Assembly: GCA_004764695.1 (NCBI GenBank)
Contig: SMSO01000006.1
Span: forward strand, 290,859-354,858
Direction: 5' to 3'
DNA: 64,000 bases
DNA from: Schizochytrium sp. TIO01
Taxonomy: Eukaryota; Sar; Bigyra; Thraustochytrida; Thraustochytriidae
Within the stretch, counting starts at the first letter, position 1. Each line of letters opens with the position of its first letter. The position numbers were made by a program, and so were the translations under genes. Shown piece after piece: positions 7,128 through 59,231 of the stretch. The notes below the pieces were generated by a model that was given only the letters and a program-made list of their open reading frames with translations, was not told the DNA's origin and made no database searches.

Positions 7128-8369
7128 ATGGCGGACATTCGCTCCGTTCTGGAGCGTCAGGACCTTGTCTCTCTGCAAAACCTGGCTCGCTCAGAGCCTT
7201 CTCTGCTCGAAGCCCCAATCCCTGCCGAAGAAAACGGATTTACTCCATTGATCTTCGCTGCACAATCGAATAACCCTGAGCTAGTTCAATTTCTTATCGA
7301 AACCTGTGGCGTTAAAGTTGATGCTCCCAGCAGGTATGGTTTCACTGCTCTCATCGTCGCCTGCATGGACGGGCACACATCTACCGCTCAAACGCTCCTA
7401 ACGCATGGTGCACTAATAGATCGCGCAAATGAGCAGGGCCTGACAGCGCTCATGGGAGCGTGCATCTTTGGCCACTCCACTACAGCACGTATGCTTTTGG
7501 ATGAGGGTGCACGCGTAGATTTTCAGAATGAACACGGTTTAACGGCATTGATGGACGCTGCTACGAATGGTAAAACAGAGACGGCAAAGATGCTGCTGGA
7601 TGCGGGAGCTGTGGTGGATTTGCGAAGTAAGGAGCAGTTCACAGCCCTGATGGCGGCATGTGCTCAGGGCCAGACAGAGACAGCAAAGATGCTGATCGAG
7701 AGAGGCGCACGGGTCGATAGTTTGAACGCAGCAGGTCAGACTGCGCTGGGGCTTGCGTGCATTGGAGGCCATATTGAGACGGCTCTTATGCTTGTCAAGA
7801 ATGGCGCTAATGTAGACATCCAGGCCGAGGATGGAGTTACTCCGCTTATGCAAGCATGCCAAACTGGTCAGGGCGAAGCAGTGCAAATGCTTATTAATCA
7901 GGGCGCAGAGGTTGACCACGTTGACAAGGGCGGATGGACCGCCCTCATGCACGCGGCATATTACGGTCGTCCAGGCTGCGTGAAACTTTGCTGGATCAAC
8001 GGTGCGAGTCTCGACCCGCACGATTACAAAGGTATGGATGCGCTGGCACTAGCTCGACGCTCTGGCAAGGGCGATATCATGGTCTTTCTCGAGTATGTCA
8101 CAACCCGAGAAGTTGTTAGAGTGCTTCTAAATGATCTCCACCTCCCACGTGACATCGTACTCTCTTTCTACAATGCCAGAATAATGACACTGGATGACTG
8201 CAAGATGCTGAAAGACAAGACTCTCAAGGATATGGGCATAGCCGCTGCAGACCAGCGCCGCCAGGTTCTCACCCGGCTTGCACCTGACAATATTATGCAG
8301 TCCCGCCGCAGCTCTATCAAGGCAGCTCTTGCACGAATGTCTTTGCGCCGATCCGTTGCCAAATCATAA
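7128..8369 (+). CDS. Ankyrin-repeat protein with C-terminal SAM-like domain
   Basis: This is an intronless gene for 413 residues. About nine ankyrin repeats fill residues 36-325, with the usual TALM-A-x-x-G-x-x-x-x-A-x-x-L-L-x-x-GA pattern; one near residues 135-165 reads GLTALMDAATNG then ETAKMLLDAGA. Residues 329-385 look like a sterile alpha motif: aliphatic and aromatic spacing as in LLNDLHLP, then DCKMLKDKTLKDMGI and an RRQVLTRL helix. The C-terminal 28 residues are basic and serine-rich. There is no signal peptide or membrane segment, so the protein is probably cytosolic or nuclear. Ankyrin plus SAM proteins are usually scaffolds in signalling, and no catalytic domain is visible. The ATG at 7128 is the first in frame and fits the start of the homology. 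Its partner is unknown. The ankyrin call is firm; the SAM call is by pattern. Confidence 0.9.
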   Translation: MADIRSVLERQDLVSLQNLARSEPSLLEAPIPAEENGFTPLIFAAQSNNPELVQFLIETCGVKVDAPSRYGFTALIVACMDGHTSTAQTLLTHGALIDRANEQGLTALMGACIFGHSTTARMLLDEGARVDFQNEHGLTALMDAATNGKTETAKMLLDAGAVVDLRSKEQFTALMAACAQGQTETAKMLIERGARVDSLNAAGQTALGLACIGGHIETALMLVKNGANVDIQAEDGVTPLMQACQTGQGEAVQMLINQGAEVDHVDKGGWTALMHAAYYGRPGCVKLCWINGASLDPHDYKGMDALALARRSGKGDIMVFLEYVTTREVVRVLLNDLHLPRDIVLSFYNARIMTLDDCKMLKDKTLKDMGIAAADQRRQVLTRLAPDNIMQSRRSSIKAALARMSLRRSVAKS

Positions 8370-40368: not shown

Positions 40369-41326
40369 CGTGCTCTCTATGGAGTCTACTTAAAGCCCCA
40401 AACTAAACAAACAAAAAACGGCAAGCTCACGAAAAGCCCTCCGTGGTTATAAATATGTTGTGCGTCAACCCTCAGTGATGCTTTGGCTGAATGAATGGAT
40501 CAAAAATCGCGTTGATCGTGCTTCTAGAGCCCTCAAAAATATATGCTCTCGTCCACGTCACTGAGCGGCAGCTGATTCTCTACTTGCAGCACAATATATT
40601 GTTTACCTTGTAAGTCAATTATTAAACTTACATAATAAACTATTCCTCCCAACAAGTGAGCTATTTTTGCGCCAAGTAGACGATTCACAAGTTCCATGCG
40701 AAAGTGGCACAAAGGGGAACTCGCAAGTAGAACAAAGAGTTTAGTCCATAGTAGCACTTGCGGATATGAATAGGCTATATGGAGAAAGTTCTAGTGTAGC
40801 CAGTATTACTGGCACTTTACCGAGAAGGGAGACGCTTTCTTTCCCTCTTACATCTCTTCTAGCATTTCTTTGCGCAGAGCTTGCTTGCTCCACCCAGATC
40901 GAAAACGCGGTACGGTGCTGGTTGAGTTTGGGAAAGAGGCAAAGGGACTGCAGGGACGCGACAAGTCCTTCTGCAGGCGTCCTTTCTTGCAGCAATTATC
41001 GCCAAAGCAACGTGTCTTCGTTCACGCCGCGGTTTTTGGCGGGCCTGTTGAGCACCATCGTACCGGTGTGTTCGAGCTTACATACAAACATAGACGTACA
41101 AATAGATCCTTCGAAGGTACAAAGGGTTTACATGGCAAGATAAGCTCTTGGGAGGACTGTACAGCTTAGGGACGCAACTGAGAGGACTCGACTCAGCGAG
41201 GACTTTTGTTGACAAAGCTTTTTCTCCCTCGAAGAGCCGTATTCAGGGTCTACAGAATTGTAAGAGTGCAATCTGAGGTCGATAAATTTTGCTTCAGGGG
41301 TGACCCTAAACTAATATTTGTCCACA
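40369..41326. other. Divergent intergenic region
   Basis: This separates the start of the membrane protein gene (-) from the start of the golgin gene (+) and should hold both promoters. An open frame of 125 codons (40,766-41,143, +) has no motif and is probably chance. Confidence 0.55.
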
Positions 41327-44300
41327 ATGAACTGGCTTGAGAGCGTGAAAAGCAACGCCCAGAAGCTGGTGGAAGAGGGCAAACAATATGCAGAAAAGAT
41401 GGAGCAGGCGCTCATGGAGGGCGAAGAGGACTCCAGCGATGATTCCAATGAAAGTGACGAAGGAGATGACGTCGACTCCAACGTTGATGATCATGAAACT
41501 CAGGGAGATCAAGGAGAAGAGCACTCTACCAAAGTTTCAAAATCTCAAAGAAAGTCGAGACCAAAAGACCGGGAACAAGACGATGACGAGGTGAGCTGGT
41601 CTGACGATGGCAATGGCGAATGGGGTGAAGAAGATGCGGATAGTATCACCAGTTCTAAAAAAGTTGACGCTGGTACGGATGAAGATCCACCAAAAGATCA
41701 TGCTCAGGCTGCAAGTAGCTCTGCAGCAGGCCTTTTTGGCTTGGTCAGCAGTGGGTTACACAATCTGTTAGACGATGAAGGGGATGAAGAGGATTCTGAA
41801 AGTGACAGCGGCCCTCAAGGAAGTGGCTGGGGTGATGCTGAAGAAAGCCTTGATGAGGGAGACGTTGAGGAGGAGAGTGGGCGCCAAAGATCATCATCTA
41901 AATCTGATGCAACTCAATCTAAGGCTGGTGGTGCTTCTCGCTCAAACCCCATGTTCAATTTTATGAACCAAATGGGACGTATGATTGCCACGGCAGATGA
42001 AGAAGAGGGTGAAGAACAAAAGACAGCACAGATGCAGCATCTCTTAACAGAAGCAGAAAATCTGAAATCGCACATGCTGCTTCTGACTGAGGAGAAGAAG
42101 TTCTTTGAACAACGGATTCGGGAATATGAGCAAGAACGGGAAACCATGGAGAAGGAAATGCAAGCTCTTCGAGACGCAAATCCCGCAGCGTCTTCTGACG
42201 TGGATACACAAGAGTCCCTGAAGAAGCTTCAAGATCAACTCCACGAAGCGCTAACCGAAGCAGCAGCTCATCAAGCAGAAATTGACACACTTCGCGCTGA
42301 ATTGGACTCTAAGCCAAACCTCGAGGCCGAGGGAAAGGGCCGCGAGCAGCTCCGCAGTGAACGCGAGGCATTTGAAGCAAGCAAAGCACGCATTGCTCAA
42401 GAAAATGCTGACTTACAAAATAAACTTTCTGAAGTTACTGAAACATCACGCTCGCAGCAAGCTGAACTGGATGATTTGCGCGCACAAGTCGAGCGATTGG
42501 TCCCACTTGCAGACAAGGCAGAGACACTGCAGCAAGAGCTTGACCAAGCCTCTGAAAATGCTGCAACTGAAAGCCATTCCCAACTTGAAGCGCTCCAAAG
42601 TGAACTTGAGGCGCTGAAAGAGAAACTAGTTCAGGCTGAACAGGCTCTTGCAGAAGCTACCCATGACGAAGAAATCGAAGATCTTCAAAGCAAACTTCAA
42701 GATGCAAATGAAAAGCTGCAGGAAGCACAAAATGCAACTGCTATGGCTAAGGAACTACAGGAACAAGCAAACGCCTATAATGAGGAAATCCATCGCCTCA
42801 CAGAGGAGCTTGAAAATACAAAAGCAGGGGGTGAGACAGAAATGGACTCTCTTCGTGAGGAATTGTCTTCAAAGAATGCAGAACTTGGTCGTCTTGCCGA
42901 GGAACTCCAATCTGCCAAGGCTGATGGTGAGACAGAAATGGGCTCTCTTCGTGAGGAATTGTCTTCAAAGAATGCAGAACTTGATCGTCTTGCCGAGGAA
43001 CTCAAATCCGCAGAGGTCGGAGGTGCGACGGAGATGGAAACACTGCGTGAGGAGTTGACCTCGAAGAATGCTGAACTTGAGCGTCTCACTGAGGAGCTTG
43101 CATCTGCGAAGACTGGCGATGATACGGAGATGGAAACGCTGCGTGACGAGCTATCTTCAAAGAATATCGAGCTTGAACGTCTTACCGATGAACTCGAATC
43201 TGCCAAGGCAGGAGGTGAGTCAGAGATGGAAAAACTGCGCGAGGAGCTATCTACGAAGAATGCCGAGCTTGAACGACTTGCCGAGGAACTCGAATCTGCC
43301 AAGGCAGGAGGTGAGTCAGAGATGGAATCACTGCGCGAGGAGCTGTCTACGAAGAATGCTGAGCTTGAACGTCTTGCCGAGGAACTCGAATCCTCCAAGG
43401 CAGGAGGTGAGTCAGAGATGGATTCACTTCGGGAGGAATTGTCAACAAAGAATGCCGAACTCGAGCGTCTCGCTGAGGAAATTGAATCAACTAAGACTGG
43501 TGGTGAGAACGAGGCAAGTTCTCTTCGTGATGAGCTTTTAAGCAAGACTACAGAGCTTGAGCGCCTCAGGGAGGAGCTTGAAAGCTCCAAACTTGGTGGA
43601 GAGAGTGAATTAGCCACTCTTCGTGGAGAGCTTGCTAGCAAGTCTTCCGAGCTTGATCGCCTGATTGAGGAGCTCGAGACCACAAAAGCTGGTGGCGAAA
43701 GCGAGGCTTTGTCACTCCGTGAAGAACTGGCCAATAAAGATGCCGAACTTGAGAAGCTTCTTACAGAACTTGAGACCACCAAGGAACAGCGCGAAAGCGA
43801 GGTTGAATCAATGCGAGGTACTTTTGAGTCTAGAACGGCTGAATTGGAGCAACGCGAAAAGGAGCTCGAGCGCGAGCTAGCAACTCAGTCTGAGGTCCTT
43901 CACGACGCTCAAGAAGCGCTCACGATTGCCCGCTCCAGCGGAGACGAAGAACTCATATCTCTCCGTACAATGCTTGATGAAAAGAACCATGAGTTGCGCG
44001 AAGCCCAAGAGTCGTCTGAATTGCGAGCTTCCGAGGTAACTGATCTTCGAGCACAACTTGAGCAAGTTCGCGTCAGCCTTGAGCAGTCGACAGAGGAACA
44101 GCAAAAGACTCGCGAGGATGCTAGTGCTGAGACAGCAAAATTACAGGAGCGTCTCGAAGAAGTTGAAACCAAACTGGCAGCTGCACAGACTGATGTTGCA
44201 GAGGCCGAACACCTCCGTGAGCAATTCGATGAGTTGCGCAAAAAGTATGGCAAGGGAGAACATGGGAAGGCTCTCGTCGATCATGTCGAACGTCTCGCTG

Positions 44301-47300
44301 AAGAGCGTCTCAAGGGATATCTTGCTGCCCGTGGACTTGTACAAGACCAGGACGATGAAGACGAAGATGCCGAGGCTGCCTTGGACCGAGGTCTTGCCGC
44401 AGATCGTAGCAAGCTCATATCCTTGGAGGCAGAGCTTGAAAGTGCGCGTACAACTCTAGAGGAGTCTTGGCGTAACCTGGAAAATGAACAAGCTAAACAC
44501 GAAGCCAAGGAACAAGAGCTTGTGCAAGCGCAAAAGCATATCGAAGAGCTACAAGTGAGCCAAGCTAATTTGCAGGCCACAACACAAAAGGAACTTGAAG
44601 AAGCTTTACAAAAAGTCAAAGATTTGGAGCAGGAGCTTGAAACTGGAAAATCATCTCGGGAATCAGAAGCTGGCCAACTGCAGGAAGCCGAACAGAGTCT
44701 GGAGGTACTCCGTGTGGATCTCAACAAGGCACAGGAATACTCAAAGGGTGTTGAAGAGAAGATGGCGAAGCTCAAGGGACAGTACCTTGAACTGTTACGC
44801 AGCCGGTCAAGCGAAAAGGATGAGACTTCATCTGCACTTTCCGATAAAAGTGAACAATTGGAGGCTGCTCTTGCAGATTTGAAGAAGGCCAGCGATGATT
44901 TGGAGGCCTTGCAAACAGCAAAGGATACAGCTGAAGAAAGGCTCAGAGTTCTGGAGAAGGCAAATGTAGACGCGTTGGAGGCTGCTGAATCCGACCAAGC
45001 AAACATTCAAGCAGAATTGGAAGAAGTCCGAGCGGCTTTGAACAGTGAACGTCAGGCTTGGGAGGCAAAGGAGGCTGAACTAGAAGCCAAGATCTCTGCT
45101 CAAGAATCTCAAGATGAGAGTCACCAACAGGTTGTACAGGCGGAGCTTGACGATTTGCGTGCAGCAAACAACAAGCTGAAGGAAGAATTAGAGACCAAAG
45201 AGACCGAATTTAAGGCCAAAGTCTCAGAGCAAGAATCCCAGGCTGAGTCAGACAAGCAATCTCTACTAAGCGAGCTTGAAGAAGCTCGTGTGCAGCTTCA
45301 GAAGGCTACTGAAGAGTGGGAGTCGAAATTGGCAAAACTTGAAGCCAGCTCTGCGGCACAAGGAGAACAGGTCGAAGCTGGCAAGCAAGCTTTGCAAACT
45401 GAACTTGAAGACATCCGATCAGCTTACGAGAGAGACAAGAGCAAGTGGGAGTCCAAGGAGGTTGACTGGGAAAACAATATGTCAGATCAAATATCCGCTA
45501 TGGACAACGAGAAGCAGGCACTGGAGGCAGAGCTAGAGCAGCTGCGCTCCAGCCATTCACAAGCTGTTGCTGAGTGGGAATCTAAGGAAGCTGACTGGAA
45601 TACACGTATTTCAGAGCGCGACTCTGAGACTAAAGATAAGTTGCAAGCTGCAGAGACGGAGCTAGAGGAACTTCGGAAATTGCCCGAGCTTCTTGAGGGC
45701 GAAAAGGCTCGCGCGCAGAGCGCAGAAGAACAAGCGTCAGAACTTGAAGGAAAACTTGAGCAAGCTTTGAACTCCAAGAATGACGAGGTGGAGTCGCTCG
45801 AGACAAAGCTTGAGTCGCTGCGCCAGGAGCTTGAGAAGACCCAAGGTGAACGTGAGGAATTGGAGACATCTAGTGCACAGGCCTGGCAAGAGGAAAAAAC
45901 TGCTTTGATGGCGGAGTTGGACGCAACCAAAGAAAAGGTTCAAGATCTTGAACGAATGCAACGCGAGCTTGCAGAAGCTCATGAAACGTTTGCGGAAGAG
46001 CGTGCTGCTCTCCAACATGAGCTGGCTGAGAAGGAGACATCTTTGGCCAATCTCGCCGACGCAAAAGAGGAGCTTCTCGCTCTCAAACAGCAAAGCCAAT
46101 CTGACCTTGCAGCCCTTGAAGACGAGATTTCCGTTTTAAAGGCCGCTGTTGATCGCGCAGAGGAGCGTGCGAGCGTGTCTGCAGAAGAGCGCGTCGCTGA
46201 ACTAGAGGCTGTGAATGCAGAACACAACGCCGAGGTCAGCAAGCTCCGAAGCGAACTTGCTGAGATCAAGAGTGCTGGTAAGAAGCAAAAGCTGCATACC
46301 GAAACACGTGTGCAAGAGTTAAACGAGAAGCACGCTCAAGAGCTTGCTGAGATGGAGGCCCGTCTTTCGACCGCGCACGCTACTGAAGCAGCCGAAACCC
46401 AGGCCCGCATTCAGGAGTTTGAGTCTAAACTCAAAGAAAGTGAGACTAAACTGCAAGAGAGCTCCGCTCGCGTACAGGAACTTGAAGATGCCCTTTCTAA
46501 GGCGCGTAGTGAGAGTGAAGAATTAGCGCGTAGTGAGAGTGAAGCCTTGGAGGCCAAGTTGCGTGGGGAGTTGAACGAAGCTGTGGCCAAAGCCGCGGAA
46601 GAGGCACGCGAGGCTGCTCAAGCTGAGGCCGAAGCTGAAGCGGCGACTTCTACCGGCGAATTGCAAAAGTACAAACGCAAGGCACAGGCTGCAATGAAGG
46701 CTTCACAAGCCAAGCTCAAGGCTCGCGATGAACAGATTGCCAAGTTGTCCCAAGATCTTTCGACTGCCCGTCAGCAGATAATTGATCTTGAGCGAGAACC
46801 TGTCGAGCGTGTCGTAGTGAAGGAAATTCACACAGACACACCTGCACAGGCAGCAGCACCTGGTCCTGATGTCATTGCTCTCGAGGCAGAAAAGGCTAAG
46901 CTAGAGGAAGCACTTGAGGCGGAGCGTGCGGCAGCCGAGGCAGCACGCACGGAGGTCTTAACAATTCAAGCTCAGCTCCAAGCCCAAGCCGAGGATTTGC
47001 AGTCCTTGCGTGAGCTAGCCCAAGAACAGGGAAGCGTGGCACAGAGCAACCAAGCTCAAGCTGAAGCAGAAAGGCAGCGCTGGCGTTCTGATATGGAGGC
47101 CGCATTGCAGAATGAACGACAAGAACATGCTCGTGCCCTGGCTGATTTACGTACAAACTTACAGAGTGCCCAGGAGGAAGCCGCTCGTCACCGCTCAGAA
47201 GCCGAGTCTCTGCGAGCAGAGAAGCAACATCGAATGTCAGAACTTGTGCTTAACGTTATTGAAGAGCCGACTTCTCGGAGCTCTACTCCACCTGTTGCCA

Positions 47301-47584
47301 CAGAGAGAATCAAAAGAAAATCTTCTCTTAGTGGTGCAGGTAGCATCACCAATGATCCAGAAATGGGGATGCCACTGCCGCGTCTTGCTTCCTCGAAATT
47401 ACACCCGAGCCCGATGCCCCCTCTTAAATCTTTGCTTCGCCGTCGCGAGGTAATTGTTGCTCTCGTTTATGTTGCTATTATTCACCTTGCAATGATGTCA
47501 ATGTACCGAAGCTGCATTGCTTCGAGTGGAGCACTTGCAGATATTGGCAACGATGACCTCATTCTTGACGATAACAGTCTTTAA
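41327..47584 (+). CDS. Golgin-84-like coiled-coil protein with C-terminal membrane anchor
   Basis: The product has 2,085 residues from the ATG at 41,327; the frame is open slightly further upstream, but only to a TTG. The N-terminus (MNWLESVKSNAQKL, then VEEGKQYAEKMEQAL) resembles the start of golgin-84 and TMF-type golgins. Residues about 30-230 are very acidic and Ser-rich. From about 230 to 1,970 the protein is almost continuous coiled coil rich in Glu, Leu, Lys, Ala and Gln, including eleven 32-residue repeats (about 503-854). A Ser/Pro linker leads to a single hydrophobic segment at about 2,042-2,060, after LKSLLRRRE and containing ALVYVAIIHL, like the tail anchor of golgin-84 with its LLHLW-type motif. 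A Golgi vesicle tether is the likely role. The length exceeds golgin-84 (about 730 residues) and is nearer giantin. Long coiled coils mimic one another, so the exact orthology is uncertain. Confidence 0.82.
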   Translation: MNWLESVKSNAQKLVEEGKQYAEKMEQALMEGEEDSSDDSNESDEGDDVDSNVDDHETQGDQGEEHSTKVSKSQRKSRPKDREQDDDEVSWSDDGNGEWGEEDADSITSSKKVDAGTDEDPPKDHAQAASSSAAGLFGLVSSGLHNLLDDEGDEEDSESDSGPQGSGWGDAEESLDEGDVEEESGRQRSSSKSDATQSKAGGASRSNPMFNFMNQMGRMIATADEEEGEEQKTAQMQHLLTEAENLKSHMLLLTEEKKFFEQRIREYEQERETMEKEMQALRDANPAASSDVDTQESLKKLQDQLHEALTEAAAHQAEIDTLRAELDSKPNLEAEGKGREQLRSEREAFEASKARIAQENADLQNKLSEVTETSRSQQAELDDLRAQVERLVPLADKAETLQQELDQASENAATESHSQLEALQSELEALKEKLVQAEQALAEATHDEEIEDLQSKLQDANEKLQEAQNATAMAKELQEQANAYNEEIHRLTEELENTKAGGETEMDSLREELSSKNAELGRLAEELQSAKADGETEMGSLREELSSKNAELDRLAEELKSAEVGGATEMETLREELTSKNAELERLTEELASAKTGDDTEMETLRDELSSKNIELERLTDELESAKAGGESEMEKLREELSTKNAELERLAEELESAKAGGESEMESLREELSTKNAELERLAEELESSKAGGESEMDSLREELSTKNAELERLAEEIESTKTGGENEASSLRDELLSKTTELERLREELESSKLGGESELATLRGELASKSSELDRLIEELETTKAGGESEALSLREELANKDAELEKLLTELETTKEQRESEVESMRGTFESRTAELEQREKELERELATQSEVLHDAQEALTIARSSGDEELISLRTMLDEKNHELREAQESSELRASEVTDLRAQLEQVRVSLEQSTEEQQKTREDASAETAKLQERLEEVETKLAAAQTDVAEAEHLREQFDELRKKYGKGEHGKALVDHVERLAEERLKGYLAARGLVQDQDDEDEDAEAALDRGLAADRSKLISLEAELESARTTLEESWRNLENEQAKHEAKEQELVQAQKHIEELQVSQANLQATTQKELEEALQKVKDLEQELETGKSSRESEAGQLQEAEQSLEVLRVDLNKAQEYSKGVEEKMAKLKGQYLELLRSRSSEKDETSSALSDKSEQLEAALADLKKASDDLEALQTAKDTAEERLRVLEKANVDALEAAESDQANIQAELEEVRAALNSERQAWEAKEAELEAKISAQESQDESHQQVVQAELDDLRAANNKLKEELETKETEFKAKVSEQESQAESDKQSLLSELEEARVQLQKATEEWESKLAKLEASSAAQGEQVEAGKQALQTELEDIRSAYERDKSKWESKEVDWENNMSDQISAMDNEKQALEAELEQLRSSHSQAVAEWESKEADWNTRISERDSETKDKLQAAETELEELRKLPELLEGEKARAQSAEEQASELEGKLEQALNSKNDEVESLETKLESLRQELEKTQGEREELETSSAQAWQEEKTALMAELDATKEKVQDLERMQRELAEAHETFAEERAALQHELAEKETSLANLADAKEELLALKQQSQSDLAALEDEISVLKAAVDRAEERASVSAEERVAELEAVNAEHNAEVSKLRSELAEIKSAGKKQKLHTETRVQELNEKHAQELAEMEARLSTAHATEAAETQARIQEFESKLKESETKLQESSARVQELEDALSKARSESEELARSESEALEAKLRGELNEAVAKAAEEAREAAQAEAEAEAATSTGELQKYKRKAQAAMKASQAKLKARDEQIAKLSQDLSTARQQIIDLEREPVERVVVKEIHTDTPAQAAAPGPDVIALEAEKAKLEEALEAERAAAEAARTEVLTIQAQLQAQAEDLQSLRELAQEQGSVAQSNQAQAEAERQRWRSDMEAALQNERQEHARALADLRTNLQSAQEEAARHRSEAESLRAEKQHRMSELVLNVIEEPTSRSSTPPVATERIKRKSSLSGAGSITNDPEMGMPLPRLASSKLHPSPMPPLKSLLRRREVIVALVYVAIIHLAMMSMYRSCIASSGALADIGNDDLILDDNSL
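42833..43888 (+). repeat. Eleven 96-bp in-frame repeats in the golgin
   Basis: The unit is 96 bases (32 codons) and follows a pattern like E-x-E-M-x-S-L-R-E-E-L-S-x-K-N-A-E-L-x-R-L. The first unit begins at 42,833 and the second at 42,929. The middle copies are the most alike and the last two or three have diverged, as expected if unequal exchange works mainly in the centre. A 32-residue period equals three heptads plus one hendecad, which keeps the coiled coil continuous. Confidence 0.93.
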
Positions 47585-53405: not shown

Positions 53406-56069
53406 TCAAAATGTAGTTCGTGTCTTTGGCGAAACACAGTCGTATCGGCCTGGGTTTCTTCCAGCAGCAGAAGATGCAAAGCGCGGCACACTAGAACCAA
53501 ATCCTGAAGGCACCTGATGCTGATGCTGATGCTGCTGCTGCTGCTGCTGTTGTTGTTGCTGTTGCTGCTGCTGCTGCTGCTGTTGGGATACCGCCGAAAT
53601 GTCAATAAAGCTCGGACCCGAGTGTGCAGGGGCGTTGGCCGTAAATACCCTCCGTGGCTTCGTAGGTGTTTGGGGTGCTTGTGATGAGGATGTTGGGCTT
53701 TGGCTATCCTTGTTTCCCTTTGCAGTCGATCTGCTCGACGCAGATGTTGAAGTTGCTATGGATGCCGCGGTGTCTGTTGATGCAGACGTAAACACTCGAT
53801 TGCGCGAAGCTCTCCGCGAATGTGCAATTCCGTCACCAGCAGCTTTCCACTTCGTCTCGTCTGAAGACTTCTCTGATTCCCGCACCCGCTCCCGCAACGC
53901 AGATTCCTGAGCAGCTTTGAATTGCTCCGTAGATGCCAACGTTGCTTCGGCACGCGCACGATGAGTAAAAGTTGGCTGAAGATAGCGCGATGATGTCTCT
54001 TTCTTTTCACGAGAAGAAGAGGAAAACTTCGGACCTGAAGATGACGTACTGTTTGTTCGTAATTTATTTGTGCTTGAAGTTGGAGCGCCTGCTTTACTTG
54101 ATTTAGAAGTTGTACGACGTGGCGCCACGCGTGAAGTGTTGATGCGAACACCGCTTGTTTCGCGACGGCGTGTTGCTCCTGTGGCACTTCGAGTGTTGGT
54201 TTCACTTGAGCGGTTGGGGGAAACGTTTTGGTCAGAAACCAGCCTCGTAGTCTTAGTTTTGGTGCGTGATGTGTCCTTCTTTTCGCGCTCTTGATATTTA
54301 TCTAGTGCATCTCGGAGATCTTGGATTTCGCGATCCTTGGTACTCAATAAACGCATACCTTCTTGAATCATGCGCCGTAGACTCTTGTTTTCAGAATCCA
54401 TATCATGATGGCGACGCACTGAGACAGAATTAAGTCGCATAGTTCCATTGGCTCGAAATAAGCAGACAGTGTCAACATGGTCAGGGTCTACCCCGTGGGG
54501 ATGAGTAGGATGCAACCCCGACCCAGGATGCGGGCGATGGTGCGATGCACCAGCAGCGCCGGCGCCGAAACGACTGGGATGGTGATTATAGTGAGTCATT
54601 GCCGAAGTATTTGGAGGCCCTGGTCGCTGATGAACTGCTTTGCGGCGATCGTTGACAGACATACGGTGTTTCCCTTCGAGATAAGCACGCTCAATACTCT
54701 TTCCGTAAGCTAGCGCTTCGTAAAATCCCTTGGAAAAGTGCAATGCGCTTGAGTCTGACATTTTGCCTTTGGCACAAATAGCCATTGGAATGCCGACTCC
54801 AAGCAGCTGCTCACAAGCAAGCTGGGAGTGGCAGGCATTCAGTAAAATACACCGCAAATCAAGAGCATAAGGTGACATCATCTCTGCAAATGCTTTGGTG
54901 CTTACAAAGTTCATCCCTGGTCGTCCACCCATTTCGAAGGCAAGGGATCCAACTCCGGCCTCGAGAATCTGTTTTTTTGTGAGAACTATATCTTTTGTAC
55001 AGTTAGGCCCACCGTCTGGAAGACGGAGAACCAGCGGGTCATGGTCGCTGCACACATCCATGGCTGTTGAATCAGGAGTGCTGGGCCTTGACGGTGGACC
55101 TGGACTTAGTGATGGGTCTGTAGGTCCGTCGGTGGCTTGTGTGAAAACGAGCAAGCGACGCTCATCTACACGCTCCTCAGCATCCGCTTGCAGTACAATT
55201 TTTGTTGTAGATCGCCGGATCATCCGAAAGTCTGGCGTGAGTGAGCGTGCTTTGCTAGTTTCCACAACCTCAGCTAAGCTACCTGTGGCTTCGTTCGCCT
55301 CACAACGTTTTGTCAATGTACGGCCACGCTCACCACTGGATGTAGTGCTTGGCGAGAGCTGTGGTACATCGCTACAGCTCCTGCTACGTTCGCGTGTTTC
55401 ATAGTTGGACATATCTAAGAATCCATCCTCTTTCTCATCCTCATCATATCTTTCTACAGAATCCTCACCGCGCGTAGGAACTGGTCTTGATGCTGCTGGT
55501 GGTGGCATTGCCTTCCGTTTGTCAGGTGTACCGGGAGGTCCAGGTCCACTGTTTCCTGTGTTATTGTTGCCGCTTCCTGCATTCCCAGGAGAATCTATTT
55601 CATCCATGAAGTTCATAGCTTGCACTTCGAGGTGTTTGCTTACCTGTGCTGCAAGTTCGTGGATACCAGAAACACTTGCACTACTGGACTGGAACCTGCG
55701 CGCAACATCGGGTCCATGTTGACGGTGAAGTTCCGAGAAGATAAGTCGTACCAGATGATTATCCACGTCACAGTGTCCACTAAAGTGAATCACATCGTAT
55801 GAGGAACCTTGCGATGATTTCCACAGCAGCCTTTGCGCCAAATCATCCACGGTTGCTGCAGGGAGCACATCCAGAGAGATATCCACGCGTCCAGAATGTT
55901 CTGCAAGTGATATTGATTGTCGAATTGCCCTCTCCTCTGCTTGAAGATGTAATCTTTGATGTGAACTTGGATCTGAAGAGACCATCAGCACCTCCCATTT
56001 CTTCGCAAGGTCGGCCTTATGTTCACCTCCACCAGACTCAAGTCGCACGGGTCCCTGGATTTGTACCAT
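53406..56069 (-). CDS. CHAT-domain (caspase-like) protein with long disordered regions
   Basis: The product has 887 residues and no intron. Residues 26-115 match the first half of a CHAT domain: a VLMVSSDP strand, the QAEERAIRQSIS helix, VLPAATVDDLAQRLL, and YDVIHFSGH with the catalytic-type His99. The second half follows at about 375-465: DLRCILLNACHS with Cys413, then AICAKGKMSDSSALHFSKGFYEALAYGKSIERAY. CHAT proteins are clan CD cysteine proteases related to caspases and separase. In this family His and Cys usually lie tens of residues apart (26 in human separase). Here about 314 residues lie between them, mostly Ser, Pro, Gly and charged, likely a loop insertion. His99 is followed by Cys where Gly is common. 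After 470 the chain is basic, Ser/Thr-rich and disordered, with one short coiled coil (about 557-597) and a polyglutamine tract near the end. No TPR or WD repeats are seen. Protease activity and substrate are inferred. Confidence 0.85.
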   Translation of the reverse strand: MVQIQGPVRLESGGGEHKADLAKKWEVLMVSSDPSSHQRLHLQAEERAIRQSISLAEHSGRVDISLDVLPAATVDDLAQRLLWKSSQGSSYDVIHFSGHCDVDNHLVRLIFSELHRQHGPDVARRFQSSSASVSGIHELAAQVSKHLEVQAMNFMDEIDSPGNAGSGNNNTGNSGPGPPGTPDKRKAMPPPAASRPVPTRGEDSVERYDEDEKEDGFLDMSNYETRERSRSCSDVPQLSPSTTSSGERGRTLTKRCEANEATGSLAEVVETSKARSLTPDFRMIRRSTTKIVLQADAEERVDERRLLVFTQATDGPTDPSLSPGPPSRPSTPDSTAMDVCSDHDPLVLRLPDGGPNCTKDIVLTKKQILEAGVGSLAFEMGGRPGMNFVSTKAFAEMMSPYALDLRCILLNACHSQLACEQLLGVGIPMAICAKGKMSDSSALHFSKGFYEALAYGKSIERAYLEGKHRMSVNDRRKAVHQRPGPPNTSAMTHYNHHPSRFGAGAAGASHHRPHPGSGLHPTHPHGVDPDHVDTVCLFRANGTMRLNSVSVRRHHDMDSENKSLRRMIQEGMRLLSTKDREIQDLRDALDKYQEREKKDTSRTKTKTTRLVSDQNVSPNRSSETNTRSATGATRRRETSGVRINTSRVAPRRTTSKSSKAGAPTSSTNKLRTNSTSSSGPKFSSSSREKKETSSRYLQPTFTHRARAEATLASTEQFKAAQESALRERVRESEKSSDETKWKAAGDGIAHSRRASRNRVFTSASTDTAASIATSTSASSRSTAKGNKDSQSPTSSSQAPQTPTKPRRVFTANAPAHSGPSFIDISAVSQQQQQQQQQQQQQQQQQQHQHQHQVPSGFGSSVPRFASSAAGRNPGRYDCVSPKTRTTF
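53517..53585. repeat. CAG/CAA repeat encoding polyglutamine in the CHAT protein
   Basis: On the minus strand about 18 Gln codons (CAG mixed with CAA) are followed by three His-Gln pairs. The mix of CAG and CAA suggests the tract is kept at the protein level, since pure CAG runs are less stable. Confidence 0.93.
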
Positions 56070-57728: not shown

Positions 57729-59231
57729 TTATACACGACCTTTGCCAAGACCATGCATGAGGCCAACGTAGCTAGCTTCATCAAAGTTATTGTTGAAGAA
57801 ACGACGCCGAAGTGCAAAGAACACAGATGCAGTGAGCAAAGAATCAGACCCAGCCTGGTGCATTGGTCCGACGCGCTCAACTTCAAGTTCTTCCGCAAGC
57901 TTCGAGAGACCGCTCTTGAAGGGCGCGCCTTCGAGCTTTGTCATGATGGCCTTGACATCAAACATGGCAGGAAAGTACAAAAGCAGCAAGTTGAAGAACT
58001 CGACTTCCTTGTCTGGCAGCGGCGCACAGGTCAGCACCTTAAGCAGGTAGGCGACGTCGAAGCCACCGTGAAAAGTCACCCACTTCACCTCCTTCATGAG
58101 CACCAGGCCAGAAGACATAAGTTGCTCACCAAAATCCTGCACATCAATGCCCATTTTTTCATGCAAATCAAAGTCAATGCCACTGCGCACAAGCAAGTCA
58201 ATGGAGTCCTGCGCATACATATCATCTGTGAGGCTAAATTTAAAGTGAAACTGCCAGCATGGGCAGTCCTCCGCGAAATTACCCTCATCATCCGTAAGTG
58301 CAATACCGAGTTGGATCAATTTAAGCAGGTCTACGTTGCAACGAAGAGTCTGATATTGAAAGTCATCCGTGCTTTCAAATGAGCCGATTGGTCGAGCTAC
58401 AACACCCGGAAATTCTGTGTCCATCGCAATGTAATTGTATTTTTGCACGACGCTGCGAATAACAGCCATTTCCTGGTCCAAGTTGTCCCGCCACACGTCA
58501 CGAATCTCCACCTTCTTTCCCTTGTACTCGTAAACGTGGCCACGGGTTTTGATGAGCTTACTCATCTCTGGGTCTTCCAAGCCTGGGCGCGCTCCTGGGG
58601 GTGGCGGCAGGTTTTGTTGTTGTTGCTGGTGTTGCTGGTGTTGTTGGTGTTGCTGCAGATGCTGTTGTTGAAGGTGTTGCTGGTGTTGTTGGTGTTGCTG
58701 CTGGTGGTGCTGCGGTTGTTGCTGGTGTTGTTGGTGTTGCTGCTGTGCTGCAAACGGTGATGCGTGAGACTGGTAGTGGTGCATTGGTCTGTTCTGTGGC
58801 GCTGACTGATGTTGCTGGAGCATGCTTTGGTGCGCATGGTGCATTGAGGGTTGTTGATGCATTTGTTGGTAGTGTTGTTGTTGGCCATGCTGCATGCCCG
58901 AGCCAAGGTGTTGGCTCTGCTGACCATATGGCTGTTGAGGGCCACCACGCTGTGATTGCATTGAGTGCATCTGATTTAGCATACCACCACCCATGTTGCC
59001 GCCCATGCTGCCGTCTGGCCCACCGTATCTATTGTCGGAACCGCTGAGGCCTGGCATCTGGTAACCTGAATTGTGACCACCAATGTAGCCCTGGTAGGCT
59101 CCCGAGTCACCGCCTCCGCCGTTGTACGAGCCTCCGTCCATGCCAAGGCCACTGAGACCGCCACCGCCCCCGCCTACATAGTTTCCATAGTCTCCTCCGC
59201 TACCGAGACCGTTCAGTTGATTACTGTGCAT
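57729..59231 (-). CDS. CAF1: CAF1/POP2 deadenylase, catalytic subunit of CCR4-NOT
   Basis: The product has 500 residues. Residues about 222-497 form the DEDDh 3'-5' exoribonuclease domain that shortens mRNA poly(A) tails in the CCR4-NOT complex. The domain opens with a VEIRDVWRDNLDQEM motif. Catalytic residues are Asp271 and Glu273 (IAMDTEFPG), Asp392 (FHGGFDVAYLLK), His458 and Asp463 (MHQAGSDSLLTASVFF). The Asp271-Asp392 spacing of 121 equals that of human CNOT7 (Asp40-Asp161), and the His-Asp spacing of 5 is also the same. Before the domain lies a low-complexity region: Gly/Ser/Tyr-rich (1-95), then Gln/His-rich (96-207). Yeast Pop2 also has a Gln-rich N-terminus, but most animal and plant CAF1 proteins do not. 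The gene is intronless from the ATG at 59,231. Cytoplasmic and P-body localisation is expected for the family. Confidence 0.96.
   Translation of the reverse strand: MHSNQLNGLGSGGDYGNYVGGGGGGLSGLGMDGGSYNGGGGDSGAYQGYIGGHNSGYQMPGLSGSDNRYGGPDGSMGGNMGGGMLNQMHSMQSQRGGPQQPYGQQSQHLGSGMQHGQQQHYQQMHQQPSMHHAHQSMLQQHQSAPQNRPMHHYQSHASPFAAQQQHQQHQQQPQHHQQQHQQHQQHLQQQHLQQHQQHQQHQQQQQNLPPPPGARPGLEDPEMSKLIKTRGHVYEYKGKKVEIRDVWRDNLDQEMAVIRSVVQKYNYIAMDTEFPGVVARPIGSFESTDDFQYQTLRCNVDLLKLIQLGIALTDDEGNFAEDCPCWQFHFKFSLTDDMYAQDSIDLLVRSGIDFDLHEKMGIDVQDFGEQLMSSGLVLMKEVKWVTFHGGFDVAYLLKVLTCAPLPDKEVEFFNLLLLYFPAMFDVKAIMTKLEGAPFKSGLSKLAEELEVERVGPMHQAGSDSLLTASVFFALRRRFFNNNFDEASYVGLMHGLGKGRV
58613..58746. repeat. CAG/CAC/CAA repeats encoding the Gln/His tract of CAF1
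   Basis: Imperfect trinucleotide repeats (TTG, CTG and GTG on the plus strand) encode alternating runs of Gln with single His residues. The array extends at lower density to about 58,940. Confidence 0.92.

Follow-up and report, generated by a model that had tools for sequence, protein, structure and literature searches.

Research on CHAT proteases deals with enzymes linked to CRISPR and with gasdermin systems of fungi, and eukaryotic CHAT genes have already been published for corals and fungi. In TPR-CHAT (Csx29, of Craspase), the dyad H585/C627 has a spacing of 42 residues and gating elements lie at the active site; upon activation, two rigid elements of the catalytic pocket, the H-sheet and the C-helix, turn into the flexible H-loop and C-loop (PMC9729208). 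The C11 proteases PmC11 and clostripain have an activation loop that is cleaved between the catalytic His and Cys, and in PmC11 a segment of loop L5, located between His133 and Cys179, obstructs the active site as long as it has not been cleaved at Lys147 (PMC4850288). Separase (C50) has the clan CD fold and is related to CHAT (PMC9729208). Here we describe a gene in a stretch of 64,000 nucleotides from Schizochytrium sp. TIO01 (contig SMSO01000006.1, positions 290,859 to 354,858), which we call the window and whose coordinates are used throughout. The gene (53406..56069 including the stop, minus strand, as are all of its features below) was recognized from its open frame and motifs and encodes a CHAT-family protein of 887 amino acids, the query, in which a long insert lies between a catalytic-type His and a catalytic-type Cys. 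We consider it probable that this protein belongs to a small eukaryotic family of CHAT proteases and acts as a cysteine endopeptidase, with the insert module gating its pocket.

The CHAT core

The open frame comprises 898 codons, with 11 codons from the upstream in-frame stop to the ATG. His99 (codon 55773..55775) ends the motif HFSGH (residues 95–99) and Cys413 (codon 54831..54833) is the last residue of LNAC, giving a spacing of 314 residues. Both are conserved, as the original prediction had claimed: in alignment A4, His is present in 27 of 28 rows, the exception being P0005, which lacks that region, and Cys is also present in 27 of 28, with Met instead in P0006. Among family members (the query, P0001–P0005, P0008 and P0009), the rows covering each site have His in 7/7 and Cys in 8/8, P0005 lacking the His region. 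Because the two motifs are in register in the orthologues, they are not a chance occurrence. This invariance speaks against a pseudoprotease or scaffold that has kept the fold and serves as an adaptor with a coiled coil, in the cytoskeleton or in signalling. Although that role would suit the conservation of a coiled coil and the motif FGSSVPRF outside the core, and the Met that replaces Cys in the CHAT relative P0006, we regard it as quite improbable. Most likely, the query protein is catalytically active.

The N-terminal half of the core (residues 22–103; 55761..56006), delimited by profile–profile alignment and an orthologue model, is predicted to contain strands at 25–31, 64–69 and 93–97 and helices at 42–58 and 74–86 by alignment to that model. 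The C-terminal half (residues 375–476; 54642..54947) was placed by Pfam and profile–profile alignment. It is followed by a variable linker (477–533) and by TVCLFR (residues 534–539; 54453..54470), which is likely the last core strand according to the alignment and the orthologue model. When the family alignment (six rows) was compared by hhalign with 11 compact CHATs (99.7%, E 4.3e-27), the insert was skipped, and the aligned parts were residues 22 to about 103 and the stretch from about 376. BLASTP of the query against the TIR-CHAT protein P0006 gave two separate stretches, 37% (residues 27–107) and 39% (394–472), so that both methods place homology across the two CHAT halves. The predicted structure of the orthologue brings both halves into one caspase-like domain. 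The CHAT identity, the conserved His and Cys and a predicted fold that stays intact despite the insert, as originally proposed, are thus supported. The fold prediction and the conservation suggest that the two halves would pair, with His99 and Cys413 forming a caspase-like dyad.

The insert between His99 and Cys413

Relative to compact CHATs, the insert covers approximately residues 104–374 (54948..55760), as delimited by profile–profile alignment and spacing. Its N-terminal edge (residues 104–158; 55596..55760) has three predicted helices, and its C-terminal edge (residues 342–374; 54948..55046) is predicted to form a hairpin (LVLRLP / TKDIVL) as well as a helix; both edges were assigned from identity and the orthologue model. 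Between the edges lies a variable middle (residues 161–341; 55047..55589) that is rich in Ser, Thr and Pro and, from identity and composition, predicted to be disordered; its counterpart in P0004, loop 150–188, has a predicted local distance difference test score (pLDDT) below 50. The alignment shows one short element within it, LLVFT (residues 306–310; 55140..55154), which reads LLVFS, MLVFS or LLISN in relatives and part of which is predicted, with low confidence, to be a strand in P0004. Identity is 53–91% over residues 104–160 (four relatives) and 64–88% over 342–374 (five relatives), compared with 55–85% and 56–83% for the core halves. The middle is 60% identical to that of P0001 and is 181 residues long in the query versus 68–188 in relatives. 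With edges conserved to about the same degree as the core, and a middle that varies, the insert has the make-up of a module. The insert that was originally predicted is real, but its disorder was overestimated at about 300 residues: the disordered part amounts to about 180 residues, and the edges are conserved and predicted to be ordered.

An intron or frame artefact was ruled out as the source of the insert. No stop interrupts the frame, the GC content of third positions stays even over the gene (0.35–0.46 across 12 blocks), and P0003, whose MMETSP name with ‘type:complete’ marks it as a transcript-derived open reading frame, carries an insert, with a His–Cys spacing of 332. As a transcript-derived orthologue has an insert too, the insert is not an intron.

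We surveyed the His–Cys spacing in 31 proteins (30 found plus the query). Both motifs were present in 27, the pair being incomplete in P0005 (no His region), P0006 (no Cys), and P0022 and P0023 (no Cys motif found). The spacing was 42–45 in 18 of the 20 non-family proteins and 70 and 66 in the other two (P0020 and P0021), which are CHATs with smaller extensions, that of P0020 being at the family insert position. The comparison of orthologues suggested with the original prediction yielded seven family rows, with spacings of 154–332, conserved edges and a variable middle. This wide range of lengths, the poorly conserved middle and the smaller extensions of P0020 and P0021 would fit an insert that is a passive, tolerated spacer in an active protease controlled elsewhere, by the coiled coil, the tail or partners. 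However, both edges are conserved about like the core and predicted to be ordered in the orthologue, and the insert adjoins the catalytic His, which makes a mere spacer unlikely.

By analogy with C11 proteases, it is reasonable to see the insert as a regulatory loop or a self-cleavage site, as was first suggested. In the strict form of the latter, the insert would be a self-processing loop in which a cut between His99 and Cys413 gives a two-chain active enzyme, like PmC11 and clostripain. Yet inspection of the variable middle, by eye only and with no formal search, showed no clear common cleavage motif, and TPR-CHAT and separase are described as controlled by allostery or an inhibitor; self-processing in this form also seems unlikely. 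Our preferred reading is a gating module that cleavage might be one way of triggering, because the insert occupies the same His-to-Cys connection as the H-sheet/H-loop of TPR-CHAT, which adjoins the catalytic His, and the C11 activation loop. In this mechanism, a family-specific module of three helices, a long disordered loop, a short strand, a hairpin and a helix, standing in place of the compact-CHAT turn, would gate the active-site pocket. The trigger would be binding, phosphorylation or cleavage of the disordered loop, and the coiled coil would presumably make the protein oligomeric.

Several results weigh against a gated CHAT protease. With Pfam CHAT (PF12770; cut-off 24), P0001 (35.0), P0009 (30.7) and P0008 (24.6) score over the cut-off, but the query (21.8 bits) and P0004 (18.3) do not reach it. 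The score of the query is plausibly lowered because the long insert splits the domain. The query frame was also not among the matches of a genome-wide CHAT profile search at E ≤ 0.001. Its own structure model is poor (mean pLDDT 40.7, predicted template modelling score 0.24), and the fold is taken from the orthologue model and an alignment that includes compact CHATs. Finally, the insert middle is just 22–25% identical to P0002–P0004, a low value that would be expected for a spacer.

Relatives, C-terminal region and genomic setting

A protein search with the query returned five proteins at E ≤ 0.001 (P0001–P0005). P0001 is from Hondaea fermentalgiana, a thraustochytrid (Labyrinthulomycetes; E 3e-180), P0002 and P0004 are from JGI data, P0003 is from MMETSP and in P0005 the N-terminal half is missing. 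Searching with the compact P0004 brought in P0008 (EukProt, E 2e-34) and P0009 (ENA, E 2e-9) as well. In the three protein searches, scoring was limited to the 7987 to 7997 candidates with the most shared words, and the compact CHATs that served for comparison include many weak matches (E up to 8.7) with a precomputed CHAT label. In a tree of 31 of the 34 rows, which omitted P0005, P0022 and P0023, the five closely related members formed one group (100/99), which P0008 joined at 92/88; long branches, among them own_C34, P0006, P0007 and P0009, were marked as uncertain. A single origin of the insert is unsupported because P0009 falls outside the family group and two changes are needed. Scans with alignment A1, using two peptide patterns only, gave 49 stretches in prokaryote contigs, with one relative, a compact CHAT in a Bacteroidetes metagenome-assembled genome, and 56 stretches in viral contigs, with no relative.

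The protein had been called single-domain, which was incorrect. Structure models predict a coiled-coil helix at residues 557–605 (54255..54401; block means 72–92 over 561–600), and FGSSVPRF (residues 857–864; 53478..53501) is conserved in 6/6 rows of A1 within an otherwise poorly conserved tail, although it was not found in the more distant relative P0008. The basic C-terminus was correctly predicted: residues 607–850 (53520..54251) have an isoelectric point of 11.5 and, by composition and structure model, are predicted to be disordered. The polyglutamine noted there is real, with 18 Q at residues 829–846, but a run of similar length is absent from the relatives in A1 (4 Q in P0002). No genome-wide family of the FGSSVPRF motif was seen; a relaxed DNA pattern matched 7 places, one of them FGSSSPRF on contig C31, versus 3 for the reversed control. 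A suspected identity of the motif as a flagellar PG-rich repeat found no Pfam match in support.

Across the 64-Mb genome (37 contigs, introns ignored), the CHAT profile matched at least four places besides the query at E ≤ 0.001. Three of them, L001, L002 and L003 (contigs C33, C34 and C32), are long open frames with a compact CHAT over the cut-off followed by sub-threshold NB-ARC and AAA-type matches. They have the CHAT domain in common with the query but lack the long insert (spacing 41–47) and form a separate tree group (99/99, long branches flagged). These are possibly NLR-like CHAT proteins, reminiscent of the CHAT-bearing NLRs described from fungi (PMC12881547). The fourth, L004 (contig C3), is separase, with Peptidase_C50 (E 9.8e-76) and SAP (E 1.6e-11) matches in one frame. 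The long insert is found only in the query among these five loci.

The neighbouring genes, an acyltransferase and a CAF1 ribonuclease, give no functional clue. The CAF1 ribonuclease (57729–59231, minus strand) has a long N-terminal extension that is Gly-rich and His/Gln-rich. Elsewhere in the window, a 2089-codon open frame (41315–47584, plus strand) has coiled-coil type Pfam matches in codons 1–1000 and none at E ≤ 0.001 beyond codon 1000.

Comparison with known systems

No open-licence paper was found that joins the CHAT domain with thraustochytrids or Hondaea, and among the matches listed for such papers none joined it with labyrinthulomycetes, Aurantiochytrium or stramenopiles. More broadly, the family could represent a distinct eukaryotic CHAT protease class that occurs in the thraustochytrid and close relatives and also in more distant eukaryotes, at least in the one that P0008 represents. 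A protease assembled through its coiled coil, distinct in its role from NLR-type immunity and separase, would be switched by a bipartite in-core regulatory module in which a disordered loop that can be phosphorylated or cleaved links a helical cap to a hairpin; we offer this extension tentatively and consider it rather doubtful. A free-standing, conserved protist branch with a control module in the active-site connection would add to the known means of gating caspase-like enzymes, and the protein would allow a direct test of loop-controlled activation.

Among described systems, the query was ruled out as a separase orthologue, since the strong C50 match sits in another gene, L004; the C50 family match raised with the original prediction did not appear for the query (Pfam, E ≤ 1). 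A defence gene was also rejected: no PADLOC family matched the query at E ≤ 1, and NCBIfam gave only HetF (12 bits versus a cut-off of 1200). TPR-CHAT and the query are both CHATs with the His and Cys dyad residues, but the CRISPR setting of TPR-CHAT is not present in this eukaryotic genome, and no TPR model matched the query beside CHAT (Pfam, E ≤ 1). For C11 proteases, the likeness is limited to loop position and fold: His133 and Cys179 of PmC11 are 46 residues apart versus 314 in the query, and C11 is not among the three Pfam families listed for it at E ≤ 1. SAVED-CHAT (PDB 8tl0) is the best structural match of the orthologue model, with a weak sequence match (E 0.21 and 0.058), and Pfam found no SAVED domain in the query. 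SAVED-CHAT and the compact CHATs have an HF.GH and LNAC core like that of the query, but where compact CHATs make a turn of 2–4 residues after the catalytic His, the query carries its long insert.
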